Shown: positions 1,880 through 26,064 of the stretch, piece by piece | How positions within the stretch are numbered: position 1 is the stretch's first letter | Layout of the letters: the number at the start of each line of letters is the position of its first letter | Virus record (IMG/VR): IMGVR_UViG_3300036985_001218 | Coordinates: 1-26,064 of that record | Strand: one strand, 5' to 3' | Origin: a virus | Length of the DNA stretch: 26,064 nt | Position numbers and translations under genes: made by a program | Notes under the pieces: model-generated | Database searches by the model: none | Told to the model about the DNA's origin: nothing | What the model saw: the letters and a program-made list of their open reading frames with translations, nothing else

Positions 1880-2116
1880 TTAATTTCCTTTTTGTAGTTG
1901 AGCTAATCGCCCAGTTTCTATATCTGAAGTTATATCATTTTCAATAATTTGTAATGCCTTTTGTTGAGCCTTTATTAATTTTAAACTTTCTATATCATCT
2001 GTAAACAAAAACTGACTATATAAATCTGCATTTTTCTTAATAATATAATCAGCCAAGTAATTTGAGTAAGCTCTGCTTGCTCTATTTCCTAACTCTATCT
2101 CATCTTCAACCGTCAT
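1880..2116 (-). CDS. Small protein between portal and scaffold (78 aa), unknown
   Basis: The protein begins MTVEDEIELGNRASRAYS and is mostly helical and charged, with no membrane segment. I chose the ATG at 2116 rather than an upstream ATG at 2149 because CAGGAA lies about 8 nt before it and the resulting 11-nt overlap with the portal stop is typical here. Small proteins between portal and scaffold occur in many podoviruses. In some phages they are head-completion or assembly factors, but no such match is claimed here. It is translationally coupled to the portal gene and followed at once by the scaffold. Confidence 0.7.
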   Translation of the reverse strand: MTVEDEIELGNRASRAYSNYLADYIIKKNADLYSQFLFTDDIESLKLIKAQQKALQIIENDITSDIETGRLAQLQKGN

Positions 2117-4262
2117 ACATATTGTTCCTGTTCTGCTCATAATTAACATCTTGAGATGTATTTGATGATGATTCCAACTCTGTTAATTTAAGTGCTGTTT
2201 GAGCATACAACTGGTCATACTTAAACTTTATATCTTCTAAATCTTTTTCAGCTATCTGAACAGCCTTGGCTTTGTCTAATTCAGCCTTTAACTGCTCCAA
2301 CTGAATCTGAAATGATTGTTTTTCCATTTCACGTTGATGTTTACCTAATTCAACCTGACCTTTGATAGCTACATTTTGCATCTGCGCTTCTGCTGTGGTA
2401 GTTGCTGATTTAGCCAGCTCTGCTTGCATACGCATTTGTTCAAGTTGTGCTTGTTGCGATTCTTGCTGTTGTTGCTGTTGTGTTTGCTGAGATTGTTGTG
2501 CTGCTTGCTGACCTTCTGGACTTGATGGATCAACAAAATATTTATTAGCAGAGTCTAGTCCTGAGAACTTACAGAAGTCATCTATAGTGGCATATATCTT
2601 GTTAGGATTAGTAAGTGTTTGATTTGGCATACTCATAATTTTTTCTTGCAGTAACTGAACCTGTTGTATGGCTGCAAGTTTTGCTCTAGTATCGCCAGTT
2701 CCAGTTCCAACTCTCACTGAACTTCTTGTTCTTTCTTCCCACTCAGATGGATTAACCTTTACCCATTGACCACGAAACTTAAAATCTTCTATAGTATCAA
2801 CATGCATGGTAACAAGATCACGAATCTTATTACATAAAGGCTTAATTCCAGTTTCACAGATAACACGAATGATCAGACCAACCAATTCTTCTTTGGCGTT
2901 CATCATTCGCTCAACACCTTGTGAGCCAACTGCATTGCCAATATTTTCAGGACTAGCTGTACCATCTGCTGATACACCAGTTCTTCCTGCTTTTACTTCA
3001 TCAAGATATTGCATCATACTAAATGCTGCATCTCCAATAGCAGGTGTTTGCAACGGCATTATTGCATCAGTTCTTTTTACTCGGATTAATCCACCAGGTC
3101 TTGATACTAAAAGATCATCAAGATTTACTTGACCTTCAAGAACAACATTGCGCTGGTTGTTTTGCAAGTACATGTTATCCATAATATTACGGATAATTGC
3201 GGTCTTGTTGTCTTGGATAGACTTCAGTCTGTCATATATTGATAGCCCTTGGAACTTGTGTGACATTAATATCGCTGTGGTGCTAATCCAAGGTAAACTA
3301 TCTATTTCTTCCATGCTTAAAATAACAGTTGGAGTTTCAACTCCTGCGACTGTTACTTTCATTAATTCAGCTATTCCATCACCATTGACATCAAGCTTTA
3401 GATAACACTCAGTAACCTCTACTAATCTGTTAGCATCATCTGAACTTAATACTGATGGAACTTGTGTTGGTTCATTCTGATAATTAAATCTATATGCAGA
3501 CCTAAGCAAATCAGAACTAACTAAGTCTTCAATGTCTTCATCTTTGTAACCTTCTTCTCTTAGGTCAGAAAGTGTCTTGTTGACAATGTGACATGTAAAT
3601 CTAGCATTAGCTAAACTGATATTGTTATGTTGTGTATTAACTCTAAATTCTTCAGGAGCAACAGGATCAATACAAATCTTTCCACATTTCTCAGTGACCT
3701 TAATCTTTGCACTGTATGTTGTAGGTTCTTGTTCTAATGGATTTTCTGATTGACTTTCATCTTCAGTTAATTCCAATATCTCACTATCTTCATCCAACAG
3801 AGCAACAGCTAACTGATCTTCTGTTAATCCTGAATAGTTGTATGTGGTTATCTTTTCATCATCTTCATAATAAACTTTTAACATTCCATTGCGTTGCATA
3901 AGTGCATCTTTCACAAATTGATGGATTAAAGTAAACCCATCATTTTGCTTCATCAATACATCATATACATATTCTGATTCAATTTGCGCCTGTAATTCAT
4001 CTCCTTCATTGACAGGATCAAAAACCACCACCTCATTATTCTGAGTAAATGATTTCATAATCTGAGGCATTATCCACTCAATAGCATCAGCAACATCTGT
4101 TGACACCAATGAGCTACGCCCTTCCTGTTCATTACCTAATGGAAGCCCAAGATAATATCTTAAAGGTTCTTGTAATGCAGAAGATGAAGTTGTCGTAATA
4201 TCTGCATTAGCCATTTCATTTTGGATAATTGCCAATATTTCTGAATCAGTCATTTTTGCCAT
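2106..4262 (-). CDS. Portal protein (P22-like, podoviral)
   Basis: A 718-residue protein. The N-terminal part has RYYLGLPLGNEQEGRSS, TDVADAIEWIMPQIMKSF and VNEGDELQAQIESEYV, the typical start of P22/SU10-type portals. The middle contains SHKFQGLSIYDRLKSIQDNKT and NPSEWEERTRSSVRVGTGTG. The last quarter is a glutamine-rich coiled region (SQQTQQQQQQESQQAQLEQ) followed by a long charged coiled coil, which fits the helical barrel that extends into the capsid. The portal forms the dodecameric vertex for DNA packaging and tail attachment. The start at 4262 has AAAAAGG about 11 nt upstream; a second in-frame ATG lies three codons later. Confidence 0.9.
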   Translation of the reverse strand: MAKMTDSEILAIIQNEMANADITTTSSSALQEPLRYYLGLPLGNEQEGRSSLVSTDVADAIEWIMPQIMKSFTQNNEVVVFDPVNEGDELQAQIESEYVYDVLMKQNDGFTLIHQFVKDALMQRNGMLKVYYEDDEKITTYNYSGLTEDQLAVALLDEDSEILELTEDESQSENPLEQEPTTYSAKIKVTEKCGKICIDPVAPEEFRVNTQHNNISLANARFTCHIVNKTLSDLREEGYKDEDIEDLVSSDLLRSAYRFNYQNEPTQVPSVLSSDDANRLVEVTECYLKLDVNGDGIAELMKVTVAGVETPTVILSMEEIDSLPWISTTAILMSHKFQGLSIYDRLKSIQDNKTAIIRNIMDNMYLQNNQRNVVLEGQVNLDDLLVSRPGGLIRVKRTDAIMPLQTPAIGDAAFSMMQYLDEVKAGRTGVSADGTASPENIGNAVGSQGVERMMNAKEELVGLIIRVICETGIKPLCNKIRDLVTMHVDTIEDFKFRGQWVKVNPSEWEERTRSSVRVGTGTGDTRAKLAAIQQVQLLQEKIMSMPNQTLTNPNKIYATIDDFCKFSGLDSANKYFVDPSSPEGQQAAQQSQQTQQQQQQESQQAQLEQMRMQAELAKSATTTAEAQMQNVAIKGQVELGKHQREMEKQSFQIQLEQLKAELDKAKAVQIAEKDLEDIKFKYDQLYAQTALKLTELESSSNTSQDVNYEQNRNNMYDG

Positions 4263-4345: not shown

Positions 4346-5611
4346 TTAAATTACACCACGTTGTATATATGAATAATCTAATGCTCCAGAACTCCAAGAG
4401 TCATTAGTCATATTCTGTTCTGCCATTGCAAGATACCTAAAGCAATCAGCACCATGAGATGAATCATCATGAAGTGGTGCGCCAAATGTACCAGTGCTTT
4501 GGTTTTGTGTTCTTCTATAGCGTTTGATTTGATTCAGTAACTCTGACGCTTTTTTATCAATCCAAACTCTACCAAACATCATCCTTGCCATCTTTATTCC
4601 TTCCTCGATGTCCTCACGTCCTAAAACATTAACGCTTCTTCCTAAAGCCATTAATATTTCTTCTGTAGACCTTCCTGACTTAAAGTCACGACTTCTACCA
4701 TCATGAGGAATATAGTCCGTGCCATAATTGTAACCCTTTGTATTCAATTCAGCAATGTAACTATCTAAAGTTCGGTGTGAATCTTCAATATAATCAATAA
4801 TCCTTACTTCACCAGAGCCTGATCTCTGCACCATCATTATAGACATAGAATCGTTCCAACCTAAATCCCATACTGTATGAACTTTCAATAGTGGATCGTA
4901 TGGAGCATTGCCTAGTCTTTTTTCAAGATGAAGTTTGGTTATCTCATTAACGTAAATAGCACCTTCAACAGCAGGACGACATTCTCCATCCCAAACTGTT
5001 TTATATCCTTCAGGATCACGCTTTAACCAGTTTATTCTTTCCTTTTCAAGTTCTTCTGGAAACCACGGATTATCAGAATAGTTGCATTTTATAACAACAG
5101 CTTCTTCATTATCTGTCAATACAAATCTAACATACGTTTCATCAGTATCTAATTCTGGATTGAATGTTATCCATATTTCGCTGTTTGGCTTCCTTATTGT
5201 AGGTATTAAAACATCCCATGATTTCTTAGTACAAACCTGAGCTTCTTCAACCCAACATATATCAACACCTTCAAAAGACTTTAGGTTTGTAATTCCTTGT
5301 TGACGAATACCTGCAAAACTAAACTCAGAACCATTAATTCCAATTATCTTTGTTTCAAGCACTGTAAACATATGCTGTAACCCAAGTATATCAATCTGAT
5401 CCTTAAGCAACTTATGTACTGATTCTTGTATGGACTTCTGTGTTTCACGAGCGCAAAGAACTCTTATCGGTTCATTAACAGACTTAATGATTAATGCTCT
5501 TGCAACACTCCAACTCTTTCCTGATCCACGTCCACCATAAATGACTTTATATCTTTTTGGCTTAAATATATCTTTAAGACTTGGAGGAAACTTTGCCTTA
5601 ATCGTCGCCAA
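4346..5611 (-). CDS. Terminase large subunit
   Basis: A 421-residue packaging motor and nuclease of the PBSX/Terminase_3-like type. The ATPase domain has Walker A GGRGSGKS at residues 26-33 and Walker B VDICWVEEAQ at 116-125. The RNase-H-like nuclease domain shows acidic residues in VWDLG (D249), PHDGRS (D304) and HGADCFRY (D389). It pumps DNA into the procapsid through the portal and cuts concatemers. The initiator is TTG at 5611: there is no ATG before the Walker A motif, and AGAGG lies about 6 nt upstream inside the end of terS. The 14-nt overlap with TerS suggests translational coupling. Confidence 0.93.
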   Translation of the reverse strand: MATIKAKFPPSLKDIFKPKRYKVIYGGRGSGKSWSVARALIIKSVNEPIRVLCARETQKSIQESVHKLLKDQIDILGLQHMFTVLETKIIGINGSEFSFAGIRQQGITNLKSFEGVDICWVEEAQVCTKKSWDVLIPTIRKPNSEIWITFNPELDTDETYVRFVLTDNEEAVVIKCNYSDNPWFPEELEKERINWLKRDPEGYKTVWDGECRPAVEGAIYVNEITKLHLEKRLGNAPYDPLLKVHTVWDLGWNDSMSIMMVQRSGSGEVRIIDYIEDSHRTLDSYIAELNTKGYNYGTDYIPHDGRSRDFKSGRSTEEILMALGRSVNVLGREDIEEGIKMARMMFGRVWIDKKASELLNQIKRYRRTQNQSTGTFGAPLHDDSSHGADCFRYLAMAEQNMTNDSWSSGALDYSYIQRGVI

Positions 5612-17896: not shown

Positions 17897-18034
17897 CTAT
17901 TTTTTCCTTTTAGCTTTATCAGCTTTTACAAACTCTTGAGCAACTTCAACTGGTATCTTAACTTTCTTTGCAAACTTAGGATTATGTGCTGCTGCTTGCA
18001 TTAACTTTTCTTGTGCTTTTGATTTTGATGGCAT
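17897..18034 (-). CDS. DUF3008-like small basic protein (45 aa)
   Basis: The frame starts MPSKSKAQEKLMQAAAHNPK and continues FAKKVKIP, EVAQEFV, ADKAKRKK. The MP-KSK-Q---M--AAHNP-FAKKV-IP pattern is the DUF3008-like family, small basic proteins often found near phage structural genes. Its function is unknown; the basic charge suggests nucleic-acid or virion association. It shares a TAATG junction with the preceding ART-like gene and is the last gene before the terminator. Confidence 0.78.
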   Translation of the reverse strand: MPSKSKAQEKLMQAAAHNPKFAKKVKIPVEVAQEFVKADKAKRKK

Positions 18035-19482
18035 TATCTTTCCTCTGATGTTTTGTTTTCATTGTTAAATAATAAAGCACCTAATAATCCACTTGCTAAC
18101 AAACTAGAACTGTTTTTTCTTAGTGGATCAAATGCTGCAAATTTTGATCGTATTTGATTTGGTTCAAATGGAATTGTAACTTGATGACCTTGTCCTCCCA
18201 TTTTACCCCCCAAATCATAGATTCCATTGTATCCAAGTTTTTTTAACTCATTTGTTACTTTATCTGGAATTGATGTCCATACAAATGAGCTTTCACCATT
18301 CAAAGTGTCTTTTTCAAGTTCATTTACCCAGTCTTTTGGTGTAAATTTTGAATTTTTATCCCATGCGTCTGCTCCTATTTTTAATCTTGTTTTATCATTT
18401 TTAAATGCTAATTTTAATGATGGTATTATTTGTTCTTTTAATACTTGATTATTAGATGTATCTAATGGATTTGTAATTCTTGACACTCCAGTTAATATAC
18501 CTTTCGCTTCTGTCCAAGGAGCTGTATCTTGACTAATTTTATGAGGATAACCAGCCAATTTGTAAATATCTTCTAATTTTTGTTCTTCATTATACAAATT
18601 TCCGCTGTCTGCCCAATAATCACGCAATGCAGATAATGGATTGTTGCGATGCTCTCTTTTTAATAAATAATCAAAATGAGATGTGTTTATTGCGTCATTT
18701 TTACCTTCTGGATGCAATACAAAGTTACCTTGCATTGCATCTGGATTAGCATACCCAACTCTAGGTGCTTTTGATAAAATATCTTGTTTAATTTCTGTAG
18801 GTAAATGATTCCATGTTTGCTCAACAGTGTAAGGAATAGAACCTCTATATCCTAAATCTTTTGGTGATACTGTAAACGCATTTGAAATATTCCAATCTTC
18901 AGAATCAATCAATGAAGTATCTTTTTTACCTGTTGCATAATTAGATGCAATATTAGGAGAGTCAGTTCCATATGGCATAGCACCTGATGTTGCTCTTTTA
19001 GGATCAAGTCCTGGCTTAGATAATAATCTATCAAGTCTTTCCGTTCCATGAAACCAAGGCATATTAAATTCTTTAATATAAGATTGTTGCTCTGGTATTG
19101 AACTCGCATTTTCAATGTTATATTTTTGCAATTGTGGAGTTTCCATTTTTAAAGCATTTTTTTCATACTTAATTAATTCTTCTGGTGTTAATGATTGTCC
19201 AGATAAATGTTTATTTAATAATGCAAAATTTAAGTTAGGTATTTTAGTAGACAACGCCATCCCAGCCATGCCCATACCATTACCCAACGCCCAATCAGCT
19301 AACTTCTTACTGTATTCTTGGCTTTTAGCATCTTGTGTATTAGAAAACTGTGGTGGTACAAGGTTTTCAAGACCTTTAGTAACATTAGATGCTACTCCAG
19401 TATATCTAGGATTGTTATTAAACAACTGGCTATAATCTTGACCAGCAGATTTTAAACCATTAACAATTTCTTCTAATGTCAT
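18034..19482 (-). CDS. Virion-associated protein with ADP-ribosyltransferase-like domain
   Basis: A 482-residue protein. Residues 1-140 are helical with no match. The segment PWFHGTERLDR (H145-G146-T147) followed by GAMPYGTDSPNIASNYATG (about 168-185), and a C-terminal GYNGIYDLGG, FEPNQIRSKFAAFDP (about 417-452), fit the ART-PolyVal type (H-Y-E/Q layout of PARP-like ADP-ribosyltransferases) carried by many phage virion proteins. The last 25 residues include a hydrophobic SSLLASGLLGALLF stretch. As part of the late block next to ejection proteins, it may enter the host with the DNA and modify host targets. Catalytic identity is inferred from motifs only. Confidence 0.65.
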   Translation of the reverse strand: MTLEEIVNGLKSAGQDYSQLFNNNPRYTGVASNVTKGLENLVPPQFSNTQDAKSQEYSKKLADWALGNGMGMAGMALSTKIPNLNFALLNKHLSGQSLTPEELIKYEKNALKMETPQLQKYNIENASSIPEQQSYIKEFNMPWFHGTERLDRLLSKPGLDPKRATSGAMPYGTDSPNIASNYATGKKDTSLIDSEDWNISNAFTVSPKDLGYRGSIPYTVEQTWNHLPTEIKQDILSKAPRVGYANPDAMQGNFVLHPEGKNDAINTSHFDYLLKREHRNNPLSALRDYWADSGNLYNEEQKLEDIYKLAGYPHKISQDTAPWTEAKGILTGVSRITNPLDTSNNQVLKEQIIPSLKLAFKNDKTRLKIGADAWDKNSKFTPKDWVNELEKDTLNGESSFVWTSIPDKVTNELKKLGYNGIYDLGGKMGGQGHQVTIPFEPNQIRSKFAAFDPLRKNSSSLLASGLLGALLFNNENKTSEER

Positions 19483-22384: not shown

Positions 22385-22806
22385 TACGCACCTCCCATTA
22401 GTCTTCTAAATAATGACATCATGCTCTCATTAGGATGAATAGCACCTGGTGTTTGAGGCATATTTGCTTGAGGTATTCCAGTTTGTGGCAGTTGAGCTAC
22501 ACCTACGGAAGCCATTGGTTGTCTTTGTTGCTGTGGCTGTTGTTGCATAACCTGTTGCATCATTTGGCTATACATAGGATTATTAGGTTGTGCAGAAGTT
22601 AAACCAGCAGAAGTATCTATTGGTTGTGCAAACTTTTGCCAATTTCCTCCTCCTTGTTGACCTCCTTGTTGACCTCCTTGTTGTGGTTGTTGTTGCATAT
22701 ATTGATTAAAAGCATCATTTGGATTCATAACTTTCTTTTCAAATTGACCTGCTTGATTTCCAATATTTTTAAATATACTATCCCACAAACTTGACTCACC
22801 CATCAT
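22384..22806 (-). CDS. Gln-rich small virion protein (140 aa)
   Basis: The protein starts MMGESSLWDSIFKNIGNQAG and is dominated by Gln, Gly, Met and Pro (MMQQVMQQQPQQQRQPMAS). It includes three QQGG units from a 12-bp tandem repeat. The C-terminus NESMMSLFRRLMGG is amphipathic. Such Gln-rich proteins beside ejection genes are probably small internal virion or assembly factors. No family is recognised and the sequence is low in complexity. TAATG junctions on both sides. Confidence 0.58.
   Translation of the reverse strand: MMGESSLWDSIFKNIGNQAGQFEKKVMNPNDAFNQYMQQQPQQGGQQGGQQGGGNWQKFAQPIDTSAGLTSAQPNNPMYSQMMQQVMQQQPQQQRQPMASVGVAQLPQTGIPQANMPQTPGAIHPNESMMSLFRRLMGGA
22649..22684 (-). repeat. 12-bp tandem repeat encoding QQGG
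   Basis: CCTCCTTGTTGA (forward strand) repeats three times at 22649-22660, 22661-22672 and 22673-22684, the last with one mismatch. Each unit adds four residues in frame, so copy number could vary without breaking the gene. Confidence 0.85.
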
Positions 22807-23657
22807 TAACCTCCTAATACACTTGCACCAACATTAGCACCTTTTGCATTTGATTTTCCAGAACCACTACCTGAACTTAATACAGTTGGTGACCCTAAAG
22901 CATTTGCATAGTTACTAATATTTTGCCAAGGCATCATTGATGGAGCAAATGATCCCATACCAAGGTTTTGCATATTTTGACCCATGCCTAAAGCACCAGT
23001 AGACACGCCTTGTTGCTGACCTAACATGTTTGACATTAGTTGTTGTCTAGCAAGAGTTCCTTGGTCTGCCTGTTGAGCAATAGCAAGTTTGTTTTGCAAA
23101 TCTTTATCAAAAGTGTTGTAGCCAACATCTGCTAAGTTCTTTTGCAGATTGCTGTTAATATCATACATACCTTGAGAAGTTGCTGTTCCATGTCTTGACC
23201 CACCAGACATTCCAGAAGCTGCTGCCCTTGCATCAAGATTAGCAAGCATATTTGCAGTTGCTCTATTAGCATCAGCAGCATAACCAGCTTTCATTGCATC
23301 AGCATAAGTATTACCTTGTCCACCCATCATCTGAGCATAAATGCTTTGTGTGTTGGTTGGAGCATTTAACGATTGCTGTAATGATTCAGAAAGCCTATTG
23401 GCATTATCCATACCTTGATATACACCACCAGCTAACTGGTTTTTCCATTCTGGCATTGCTGCCTGATTAGTTTGGTTTATATAGTTTTGCGCTCCACCCA
23501 TTTGTTGATTAATAGTATTTCCAACATTACCATAAGTACCTGCTGCTGCATTATACATCTGAGTAAGCGCGTCAGATTGCCATTTTGGTATCTGTTGTTG
23601 AAATTGACTTTGATTGCTTGAACTGCTTTGTTGACCGCCTCCACCTGCACTTGCCAT
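22806..23657 (-). CDS. Gln/Ala/Gly-rich ejection-type virion protein (283 aa)
   Basis: The protein starts MASAGGGGQQSSSSNQSQFQ. The conserved centre (LANLDARAAASGMSGGSRHG then YDINSNLQKNLADVGYNTF) is found in small internal virion proteins next to tail and ejection genes of podoviruses, comparable in place and character to P22 gp7. The rest is Gln, Asn, Met-rich and flexible, ending in a Gly/Ser tail. It overlaps the next gene by one base (TAATG). The assignment is by family pattern and position. Confidence 0.68.
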   Translation of the reverse strand: MASAGGGGQQSSSSNQSQFQQQIPKWQSDALTQMYNAAAGTYGNVGNTINQQMGGAQNYINQTNQAAMPEWKNQLAGGVYQGMDNANRLSESLQQSLNAPTNTQSIYAQMMGGQGNTYADAMKAGYAADANRATANMLANLDARAAASGMSGGSRHGTATSQGMYDINSNLQKNLADVGYNTFDKDLQNKLAIAQQADQGTLARQQLMSNMLGQQQGVSTGALGMGQNMQNLGMGSFAPSMMPWQNISNYANALGSPTVLSSGSGSGKSNAKGANVGASVLGG

Positions 23658-23667
23658 GATAATCCCC

Positions 23668-23829
23668 TTATGCGAAAGTGTTGTTAAAGCCGTCTATCCA
23701 TGCTTGATAAGCAGGAACTCCAGCAGAATATGGGTTAGTACCAATCAATAAACCAGTTTGAGAAGCCCTGCGACCATCTCCCCATGCTTTTTGAAGTTTT
23801 ATTGTATTTTTATATATTTTACCAGACAT
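23668..23829 (-). CDS. Ribosome modulation factor-like small protein (53 aa)
   Basis: The frame starts MSGKIYKNTIKLQKAWGDGR and continues RASQTGLLIGTNPYS and YQAWIDGFNNTF. The A-x2-x-G-x2-A-x3-G, N/C-P-Y, W-x2-G order parallels bacterial ribosome modulation factor (A..RGY.AG, CPY, W..GW), which docks on the 30S subunit and drives 100S dimers. AGGGGAA lies 6 nt before the ATG, and it sits between the GNAT-like and ejection genes. It may act on host ribosomes or be a virion protein of the same fold. Homology is suggested by spacing, not proven. Confidence 0.55.
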   Translation of the reverse strand: MSGKIYKNTIKLQKAWGDGRRASQTGLLIGTNPYSAGVPAYQAWIDGFNNTFA

Positions 23830-23830
23830 A

Positions 23831-24262
23831 TTATTCCCCTAAATCTAATTTAACGATTGTTGATATTTTTTGAAAACCCATAGCATTAAGATACTTAATC
23901 CACCCATCTCTAACTGCACAACCTCTTACTTCTGTACAATTTAAGTCTTTTGCTATAGCTCTCATTACAAGAACATATTGTTCAAACCATTGATCCATTT
24001 CACTACCACCAATAAGATTAATAAATAATGCTCTTAATCCTGTTTCAAATATTCTTACTTCTAAAGTATGAACAGCAATAACTTCACTTCCTTTGCATAT
24101 AAGCAAAGCCATTTCTTTCCCAGATAATAAAGATAATTTTACACCTTCAAGTGTTACTTCATTATTGGCAAGTGGTATTACTCTTTCCAAATGTGGGATC
24201 ATCTTTTCCCACAATACTTCTACTAATGTTGGTGGTAGTGCTACTATATTATAATTATTCAT
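23831..24262 (-). CDS. GNAT acetyltransferase-like protein (143 aa)
   Basis: The protein starts MNNYNIVALPPTLVEVLWEK. The part VLVMRAIAKDLNCTEVRGCAVRDGWIKYLNAMGFQ resembles the C-terminal half of GNAT proteins as found in many podoviral late clusters, where the acetyl-CoA loop (Q/R-x-x-G-x-G/A) appears to be lost. It may be a structural protein on a GNAT fold rather than an active enzyme. It is coupled to the tail gene by a 4-nt overlap. Function unknown. Confidence 0.6.
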   Translation of the reverse strand: MNNYNIVALPPTLVEVLWEKMIPHLERVIPLANNEVTLEGVKLSLLSGKEMALLICKGSEVIAVHTLEVRIFETGLRALFINLIGGSEMDQWFEQYVLVMRAIAKDLNCTEVRGCAVRDGWIKYLNAMGFQKISTIVKLDLGE

Positions 24263-24963
24263 TGTGCTACATAGGTCATTGTTACTACATTAGATGCAGT
24301 TGATGGTTTAGTTGGTGAAGTTCCTGCTGTATATGCTTGTATAGTTACATTTGCACTTGTTGTAGACCATACTATTTCAATATATTGTCCTGCATTTAAC
24401 CTCAAAAAGAAATTCCAACCTTTAATGTCGTGGTATGGATCACCTGCTGATTTACGAGCTGGTAATCCGATAAGTCCTGTTGAGCCAACAACATCTACTC
24501 CATTCACTCTTAGCCATATGTAAACATCTTGTGGAGCAGTATCAACATTTTGAAACTGTGTACTAAATTGTATGTTATATAACCCTGCATAAGCAGCAGT
24601 TATTCTTGAACTGCTTACTATACTAACATTACTACTGTAATCAGTAGTATTAAATGTCATTAGATTAGCAGTATTTGCAGTAACTGTATGAGTTAAAGTA
24701 TCTGAAAATGCTCCATATGGAGCAGATGACATTGATGATAATGATGTCCATCCATAAGATGTATATACCCATGCTCCTTCATAAGTAATATCTGGCAGTA
24801 TTGCATTAGCAAAATAATAAATTTTACCTACATGCGGTTTTGCTGGTAATGCTGTTAATATATTAAGATTTCCTAAGTCATCAGCTTTATAATTAACGGC
24901 AGTAAGTTGTCTTACTAAATACTCTTTAAGTTCTGGTGTTGTTGTAAAAGGAGGTTGTTCCAT
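24259..24963 (-). CDS. Tail protein with TNF/C1q-like domain, putative receptor binding
   Basis: A 234-residue protein. Residues 1-70 (starting MEQPPFTTTPELKEYLVRQL) look like an attachment segment with GKIYYFANAILPDITYEGAW. The rest forms a beta-rich jelly roll: RITAAYAGLYNIQFSTQFQN, VYIWLRVNGVDV, NFFLRLNAGQYIEIVWSTTS and a C-terminal VTMTYVAQ. This alternation fits TNF/C1q-like globular tips of phage tail fibres that contact host receptors. The start overlaps the preceding structural gene by one base. The domain is recognised by pattern; the receptor is unknown. Confidence 0.66.
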   Translation of the reverse strand: MEQPPFTTTPELKEYLVRQLTAVNYKADDLGNLNILTALPAKPHVGKIYYFANAILPDITYEGAWVYTSYGWTSLSSMSSAPYGAFSDTLTHTVTANTANLMTFNTTDYSSNVSIVSSSRITAAYAGLYNIQFSTQFQNVDTAPQDVYIWLRVNGVDVVGSTGLIGLPARKSAGDPYHDIKGWNFFLRLNAGQYIEIVWSTTSANVTIQAYTAGTSPTKPSTASNVVTMTYVAQ

Positions 24964-26064
24964 TATCTTACCCCATTAATTACATATTCTATATCCAAAC
25001 CACTTAAAGTAAATGGCAATAAACCAGTTGACTTTATACGCCATGACAGTAACTTTCCAGTCGTTCTAATATCGACCTTACGCATTGTTTTTGGATCAAA
25101 TAACACCTCTGGCTTCCATCTTACTGCGCCACCTACAAAATCTTGTGATCCAAGTTGAATACTAACTGATTCATTACATGTTATATGTGGATATACACTT
25201 CTTGTAGTAGTCACAACCTCTTGCCCTTCTAAGGCAAAACTAAGCCGTTCTAGCAGTGTATTTTGAACAGTAGTATTGTCATCTAGTTCTAATGAAACAA
25301 TCGCACTGTTGACATTATTGGTGCTTACAATAGTCTTAGAGAAAACTGATGTTGGATCATAAGTCCATACCCGTGATGATGTGTCCCAAGTATCTGAAAT
25401 ATTGCTCCACAATAAAGGCGTTGCAAGGTTCACGCCAAATGCAAGACCTGTTGTTGTGCTGGGTATGTTGCGTATAGATGTTGTGCCATCAACATAGTTA
25501 AAAATAAAAGCGATATTAGGAAGTGTATTCCCCACTTCTGGAACGCAAAACCAGATTTCTTTAGTAATAGGGTTTGTTAATGCAAATGAGTTTGCATAAT
25601 AAGTAGAATCAATATTTGTAGTTAATCGTGTTTTTAATTGCTTATTTAAAATTGATTTTATAGAGTTTCCATCGTTAGATAATATGTCACCATCTGATAA
25701 GAAATAATGTACTCCATTAGCTTCTGCTAAACAATTCTTAGCTAATAAACCATGATTATCTGATAATACCTGACGTTGCCAAACAAATTCACCGCCAACA
25801 TAGTTTAATATGTTGATACCACGCTCAGAATAAAGAACAAAAGCATCTCTTAATGTTTTTCCATCAATTAGCGCACCCATGTCGCCACCAATCGATGCCT
25901 TACCAGCTATGGCCGCTAGATCAGTCTCATCCCATGTGTAGGGCAGACCATTGACATCTGCTGGATGACTCCATCGGTATGTTGATGGCAGAATTGTGCC
26001 ACCCTCAGAAAGATTTAACGCAAACAGAAAGTCTTTATGAGAACGGATAATATCTGCGCTATAG
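24963..26064 (-). CDS. Virion structural protein (tail hub or stabilisation type), 5' end beyond window
   Basis: The frame is open from the right edge (26064) to the stop at 24963. The first complete codon gives YSADIIRSHKDFLFALN, followed by PSTYRWSHPADVNGLP, TWDETDLAAIAGKASIGG and GALIDGKTLRDAFVLYSERG. This is a conserved structural protein of podoviruses in which many Gly/Trp/Asp-rich beta repeats suggest a propeller or tail hub; some relatives are annotated as packaged-DNA stabilisation (P22 gp10-like). The ATG at 25880 is internal to the longer frame. Which tail position it holds cannot be decided here. Confidence 0.7.
   Translation of the reverse strand, partial: YSADIIRSHKDFLFALNLSEGGTILPSTYRWSHPADVNGLPYTWDETDLAAIAGKASIGGDMGALIDGKTLRDAFVLYSERGINILNYVGGEFVWQRQVLSDNHGLLAKNCLAEANGVHYFLSDGDILSNDGNSIKSILNKQLKTRLTTNIDSTYYANSFALTNPITKEIWFCVPEVGNTLPNIAFIFNYVDGTTSIRNIPSTTTGLAFGVNLATPLLWSNISDTWDTSSRVWTYDPTSVFSKTIVSTNNVNSAIVSLELDDNTTVQNTLLERLSFALEGQEVVTTTRSVYPHITCNESVSIQLGSQDFVGGAVRWKPEVLFDPKTMRKVDIRTTGKLLSWRIKSTGLLPFTLSGLDIEYVINGVR

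Follow-up and report, generated by a model that had tools for sequence, protein, structure and literature searches.

The window, the whole stretch of DNA that was analysed, is a virus contig of 26,064 bases. It contains a gene resembling that of ribosome modulation factor (RMF) once, on the minus strand. This gene is an open reading frame of 53 codons and a stop, with an ATG start and with the exact ends 23668–23829 in the list of open reading frames. The features that are referred to below are as follows.

23668–23829, minus strand: gene of the 53-residue protein of predicted RMF fold, identified by its open reading frame, a sub-threshold Pfam RMF match, a structure model and purifying selection
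23827–23840, minus strand: AGGGGAATAATATG, ribosome binding site with the beginning of the RMF-like gene; of the two seam-repeat copies, this is the upstream one
23655–23668, minus strand: AGGGGATTATCATG, the other copy of the seam repeat, with two mismatches, where the next gene starts
23831–24262, minus strand: g143, the 143-residue gene directly upstream, a relative of Cronobacter phage Ss1 orf19
22806–23657, minus strand: g283, the 283-residue gene directly downstream, a relative of Ss1 orf20
24963–25880, minus strand: LUZ24-like podovirus virion structural protein of 305 residues, a marker of the late operon
2106–4262, minus strand: portal protein, a marker of the lineage; it lies downstream of the RMF-like gene in relatives with another terminase type
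4346–5611, minus strand: terminase large subunit (TerL) of type A; here no RMF-like gene lies between terminase and portal

The genes around the RMF-like gene form a tightly packed minus-strand series, with a gap of one base to g143 and of ten bases to g283. Read on the plus strand, 23668–23829 is interrupted by a stop. The preliminary description had credited the gene with a strong ribosome binding site; AGGGGAATAAT is indeed present ahead of the ATG, but we graded it only as plausible. Promoter and terminator scans near the gene gave no excess over shuffled sequences, and no RNA family was found around it. Among 18 coding sequences of the gene, pN was lower than pS in all 153 pairs, which are not independent of each other; the median pS was 0.53 and the median pN 0.075. 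The 53-residue reading frame is a real protein gene under purifying selection.

The placement of the gene among virion genes was borne out by TerL, the portal protein, the scaffold protein and the virion structural protein (phrog_3287, E=2.4e-55). The RMF-like protein of the window itself has no match in PHROGs. The closest phages with a name are Vibrio phage VA-RY-3 and Cronobacter phage Ss1, whose portal proteins are 47% and 46% identical to that of the window, respectively; LUZ24-like Pseudomonas phages are more distant. As judged by sequence, the window belongs to a podovirus lineage. Elsewhere in the window (18034–19482, minus strand), a 482-residue protein has ends that are kept in relatives (residues 1–147 and 442–482 in L028) and a middle that is swapped; the version in L028 has a very weak match to an ADP-ribosyltransferase polyvalent protein (E=0.061), and the swapped middle is possibly an interchangeable effector domain.

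The search for related loci gave 25, then 31 viral loci, of which 30 carry one copy of the RMF-like gene per record and the last carries one frame-broken copy in two pieces. Two arrangements were observed. In 12 of the 31 loci the gene lies between g143 (the dissimilar g143b in L045) and g283; in the other 19 it lies between a type-B TerL, a terminase according to Pfam (Terminase_3) and PHROG, and the portal gene. No third arrangement was found among the 31 loci. At all 19 terminase–portal loci, a match to the window's TerL is absent upstream of the RMF-like gene, and the type-B terminase is the gene directly upstream wherever the portal follows. Two dissimilar large terminases are paired with related portals (window 4346–5611 versus L042:4425–5822). 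In several phages with type-B terminase, the interval from the RMF-like gene to the portal gene also encodes a protein that carries an HExxH-like motif (L044:6162–7013, L043:6162–6935, L051:5851–6711); the L044 protein weakly matches the DUF6782 metallopeptidase family (E=0.0053).

Two alignments were built. A3 contains 24 distinct sequences, the window protein and those of 23 of the 31 loci; seven loci with proteins identical to a kept row and one frame-broken locus (L025/L048, on the same contig) were left out. A6 contains 20 sequences, the window protein, 11 of the 23 in A3 and eight more distant ones found with the A3 profile; some of its rows are domain cuts. It does not include L179, which is a shortened copy, nor L194 and L185, which repeat the domain of L195 and that of L184, respectively. 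In the shortened copy (L179:2408–2500), AWGDG of helix 1 is followed immediately by AWIDG of helix 2, which would fit a deletion between the two similar stretches or an error in assembly. When genome contigs were searched with A3 for a cellular origin, 257 candidate stretches yielded no confirmed relatives.

The RMF-like spacing of residues that had been reported for the window protein is present, as A15-x3-G19-x2-A22-x3-G26, N32-P33 and W44-x2-G47, and gives it the core signature of RMF (A-x3-G-x2-A-x3-G, P, W-x2-G). A regular expression for this spacing, composed after the alignment to RMF had been viewed, matched 30 of 2,000,000 peptide shuffles and one of the 209 stop-to-stop frames of at least 40 residues in the window, which is the frame of the RMF-like gene. 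In the 24 sequences of A3, K4, Y6, L12, W16, G17, G19, R20, R21, A22, G26, N32, P33, A43, W44 and G47 are invariant. In the 20 sequences of A6, G19, N32, P33, A43 and G47 are invariant, and L12, A15, A22, G26 and W44 almost so; by sequence this set is essentially the RMF-like signature. Lack of conservation of the NPY and W-G residues in relatives had been named as an outcome that would refute the RMF-like reading. N32, P33, W44 and G47 are kept in all 24 sequences, but the tyrosine of NPY is not: Y is found in only two of the 24, with F in 17 and H in five.

Comparison with curated profiles placed the protein near RMF at low scores. The Pfam RMF family (PF04957) scored 17.2 bits (E=0.0053) against the window protein, below its gathering cut-off of 27.9, and matched 20 of the 24 A3 members at E<=1, the best being L049 (8.9e-06, 26.1 bits, also below the cut-off); members matched one other Pfam family, at a best E of 0.13. 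NF041887 (Rmf_like_phage) gave 13.9 bits for the window protein (cut-off 40 bits) and matched ten of the 24 members at E<=1, with a best E of 0.0022. NF041886 (Rmf_CrpP_fam) gave 12.7 bits (cut-off 28 bits) and matched six of the 24, with a best E of 0.00053. Both of these families consist of small proteins of Rmf/CrpP fold, like the window protein, and NF041887 is named for phages; the window protein is under both cut-offs. The sequence link to RMF is probably real, yet it lies below all curated cut-offs. Could the likeness be a matter of chance, a helical hairpin without homology to RMF? The sub-threshold Pfam scores are what such a hairpin might give, and so is the weak profile comparison with an enterobacterial RMF alignment (score 16.46, exceeded in two of 200 column shuffles of A6 and one of 200 of A3). 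A sequence profile also found no RMF in the PDB, and an earlier model built on 18 close sequences had a pLDDT of 60 and no RMF match. On the other side stand the 20 members that match Pfam RMF and the structural searches, in which RMF alone occupies the top. We regard chance likeness as highly improbable.

The earlier model was replaced by an AlphaFold2 model on A6, an alignment that contains no bacterial RMF sequence. This model has a pLDDT of 82, with helices at residues 10–25 and 39–48 joined by a 13-residue linker, the helix-linker-helix fold of RMF in prediction. The E. coli protein likewise has two helices and a 13-residue linker, as described in PMC13411936. Foldseek, run against 350,542 PDB chains, placed RMF at ranks 1–3, with weak E-values of 0.8, 1.2 and 3.7 and probabilities of 0.90, 0.97 and 0.60. 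In VIA the top four rows were all RMF entries, with Z of 6.1, 5.2, 5.0 and 4.4, and the next row had 2.2; these modest values are convincing mainly because RMF alone occupies the top. In BFVD there were 131 matches at E<=10, and among the 50 listed many had a probability of 1.00 and some were named ribosome modulation factor. Structure prediction was one of the checks proposed in the preliminary description, with a fold unrelated to RMF as an outcome that would refute its reading; the model from A6 has RMF chains at the head of both the Foldseek and VIA lists. Neither of the two refuting outcomes that had been named, an unrelated fold or unconserved NPY and W-G residues, came about. The RMF fold of the 53-residue protein, as modelled, is well supported.

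Compared with RMF itself (PF04957; PDB 6h4n, 9iot, 4v8g, 2jrm), the phage protein is alike in size, in helix-linker-helix fold and in the A-G-A-G / P / W-x2-G spacing. It differs in its changed ribosome-binding and dimerisation residues, in a charge that is less basic to acidic, in its place in a late phage operon and in Pfam scores below the cut-off. PMC8778775 assigns ribosome binding of RMF to R3, K5 and R11, and dimerisation to G23 and R45. Residues were mapped in the VIA register, with an offset of +3 in helix 1 and of +4 at the end of helix 2. At the position of R3 all 24 members have Y, and at those of K5 and R45 all 24 have N or D, so that none of the three is basic in any member; the position of R11 is K or R in eight of 24, and that of R15 is D or E in all 24. 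Among R3, K5, R11, G23 and R45, G23 is the only one retained (24 of 24). Close to the positions of R3 and K5, near the N-terminus, lie K4 (24 of 24) and K7 (22 of 24), which on sequence could replace them and compensate in part. The net charge of 17 RMFs ranges from +5 to +8, whereas that of the 20 A6 rows ranges from +4 to −7.

These data bear on the proposal that the peptide is a phage RMF whose binding to the 30S subunit at a late stage of infection would dampen, protect or retune translation. The predicted fold is that of RMF, the main clade is basic (net charge +1 to +4), K4 and R20-R21 are invariant with K7 conserved, and expression would be late, judging by gene order. Against it, the contact residues are replaced as described, and the net charge is −7 in L171, which has the gene in the same terminase–portal place, and in L183, where it lies upstream of the portal gene. 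Even BatR (PA3049), the RMF homologue of Pseudomonas aeruginosa, is reported in PMC13411936 to have no role in ribosome hibernation; like the phage protein it is a relative of RMF, but it is chromosomal, has a 15-residue C-terminal extension and functions in biofilms. Literature searches for phage RMF found no functional study of any phage RMF, and the literature on CrpP added nothing further on the fold. Hibernation, or ribosome binding in the manner of RMF, as had been suggested for the window protein, was not sustained by these residues and by the strongly acidic members. The protein may bind the ribosome by a different surface, and we consider a ribosomal role unlikely overall.

The distribution of the gene among close relatives was analysed using the portal protein as marker. 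The portal search found 80 loci; 11 are in records of at least 37 kb, of which seven carry the domain (G086 weakly, E=2.4e-05, and G027 in frame-broken form) and four (G037, G056, G059 and G092) lack it on a rescan with the A6 profile at E<=5 that covered G092 except its last 718 bases. G037 has a portal protein 98% identical to that of the window; another gene stands in place of g143, and it lacks the RMF-like gene. The replaced g143 type is common to L045 and L225, which differ in whether they have the RMF-like gene; this indicates that the gene comes and goes independently. In L045 the 14-mer AGGGGAATAACATG opens both the RMF-like gene and g283, identical at both ends, and L223, which lacks the RMF-like gene, has it once. 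Among 232 fetched loci, AGGGGAATAACATG is confined to these two gene starts (24 loci), and the comparison with and without the gene gives a clean gap with AGGGGAATAACATG repeats on the flanks. The repeat at both starts, and its single copy in L223, suggests gain or loss of the gene by recombination between repeated ribosome-binding-site/start sequences. Divergence also varies along the region. G017 has a portal protein 100% identical to that of the window (pS 0.13), but its RMF-like protein is 81% identical (pS 0.51) and its 305-residue neighbour is divergent too (pS 0.58); since both are divergent, the region is mosaic. The RMF-like gene is a single-copy, position-switching accessory cassette of one podovirus lineage, and its accessory, late-cluster status is well supported.

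RMF-like domains were also found elsewhere in phages. In remote relatives the domain lies downstream of the capsid gene cluster (L195, 76 residues; L203; L205) or forms part of a fusion with one or two PASTA domains, encoded downstream of the major capsid gene (L190:10349–10756, L189:17063–17626). The PASTA scores are 31.1 bits in L190 and 49.4 bits in L189 (cut-off 23.2); the RMF assignment of L189 is by the A3 profile only (E=0.0052), with no Pfam RMF match reported. The window's lineage has a separate PASTA gene, which follows the scaffold and capsid genes on their downstream side, with or without the RMF-like gene. As a strict marker of RMF-carrying phages this PASTA gene failed, because it also occurs in L148, L168 and L172, which have no RMF-like gene. 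The A6 profile recognises three RMF-like segments in Pectobacterium phage MA11 gp32 (L053:5518–6363), a hypothetical protein of 281 residues that exceeds the Pfam RMF cut-off with two segments (36.6 bits). In Agrobacterium phage OLIVR4 (L054:6883–7359), a sub-threshold RMF-like N-terminus is joined to an A1S_2505 domain (142 bits). Delftia phage IME-DE1 has an RMF-like gene as well (L233 15374–15553). Phage RMF-domain proteins have been named in print already (PMC6588377). Agrobacterium phages OLIVR4 and Milano have proteins annotated with a 'ribosome modulation factor domain', which like the window protein are phage proteins with an RMF-like domain and have no assigned function. The OLIVR4 genes differ in that they are grouped with small genes, none of them annotated as a virion gene, in contrast to the late virion operon of the window. 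The kind is already known (NF041887); the features of the present variant are the late-cluster cassette, the lost contact residues and the PASTA fusions.

In the best reading, to which we give a probability of about 0.45, an RMF-fold docking module is re-used late, with a partner that belongs to the particle or to its assembly. The two-helix mini-protein would be made alongside the particle proteins, as the gene order implies. The A-G-A-G, NP and W-x2-G residues would form its folding core, and the exposed conserved K4, Y6, K7, W16, D18, R20-R21 and QAWIDGFNNTF a docking surface for a partner other than the site of RMF on 16S rRNA. The likeliest partner would be a particle or assembly component, because the gene always lies within virion-gene clusters and remote relatives have domain-PASTA fusions beside the capsid gene. 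The peptide may be accessory, decoration-like or carried inside, and could be delivered with the virion, as had been suggested; the PASTA fusions lend a link to the particle indirect support. It is not an essential structural part, as near-complete close relatives such as G037 lack the gene. Against the particle as partner, PASTA and RMF-like genes do not strictly co-occur (L148, L168 and L172).

A different partner would be a non-ribosomal host protein, on which an accessory mini-protein for host takeover or counter-defence docks. Presence and absence among close relatives, together with two alternative places, are typical of accessory genes, and those RMF-like domains of other phages that are not near annotated virion genes favour a host-directed role; one is fused to A1S_2505, a 'phage non-structural protein' domain, and a single MA11 protein holds three segments. 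In this lineage, however, the gene is always in virion clusters, and its presumed late expression would be late for takeover. We hold this host-directed role to be doubtful; in our rough odds it ranks after the particle or assembly partner and before the ribosome. Extending the particle or assembly reading to tailed phages at large, which would have turned the RMF fold into a swappable late or virion docking module, alone, PASTA-fused or tripled, with a particle or assembly partner and not the ribosome, is similarly doubtful.

Phage proteins commonly have RMF-like folds, and databases give some of them the name 'ribosome modulation factor'. Here the fold is kept, the ribosome-contact residues are lost and the place of the gene is tied to particle genes; the name is therefore not to be taken as a function. 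Close relatives with and without the gene constitute a natural experiment.
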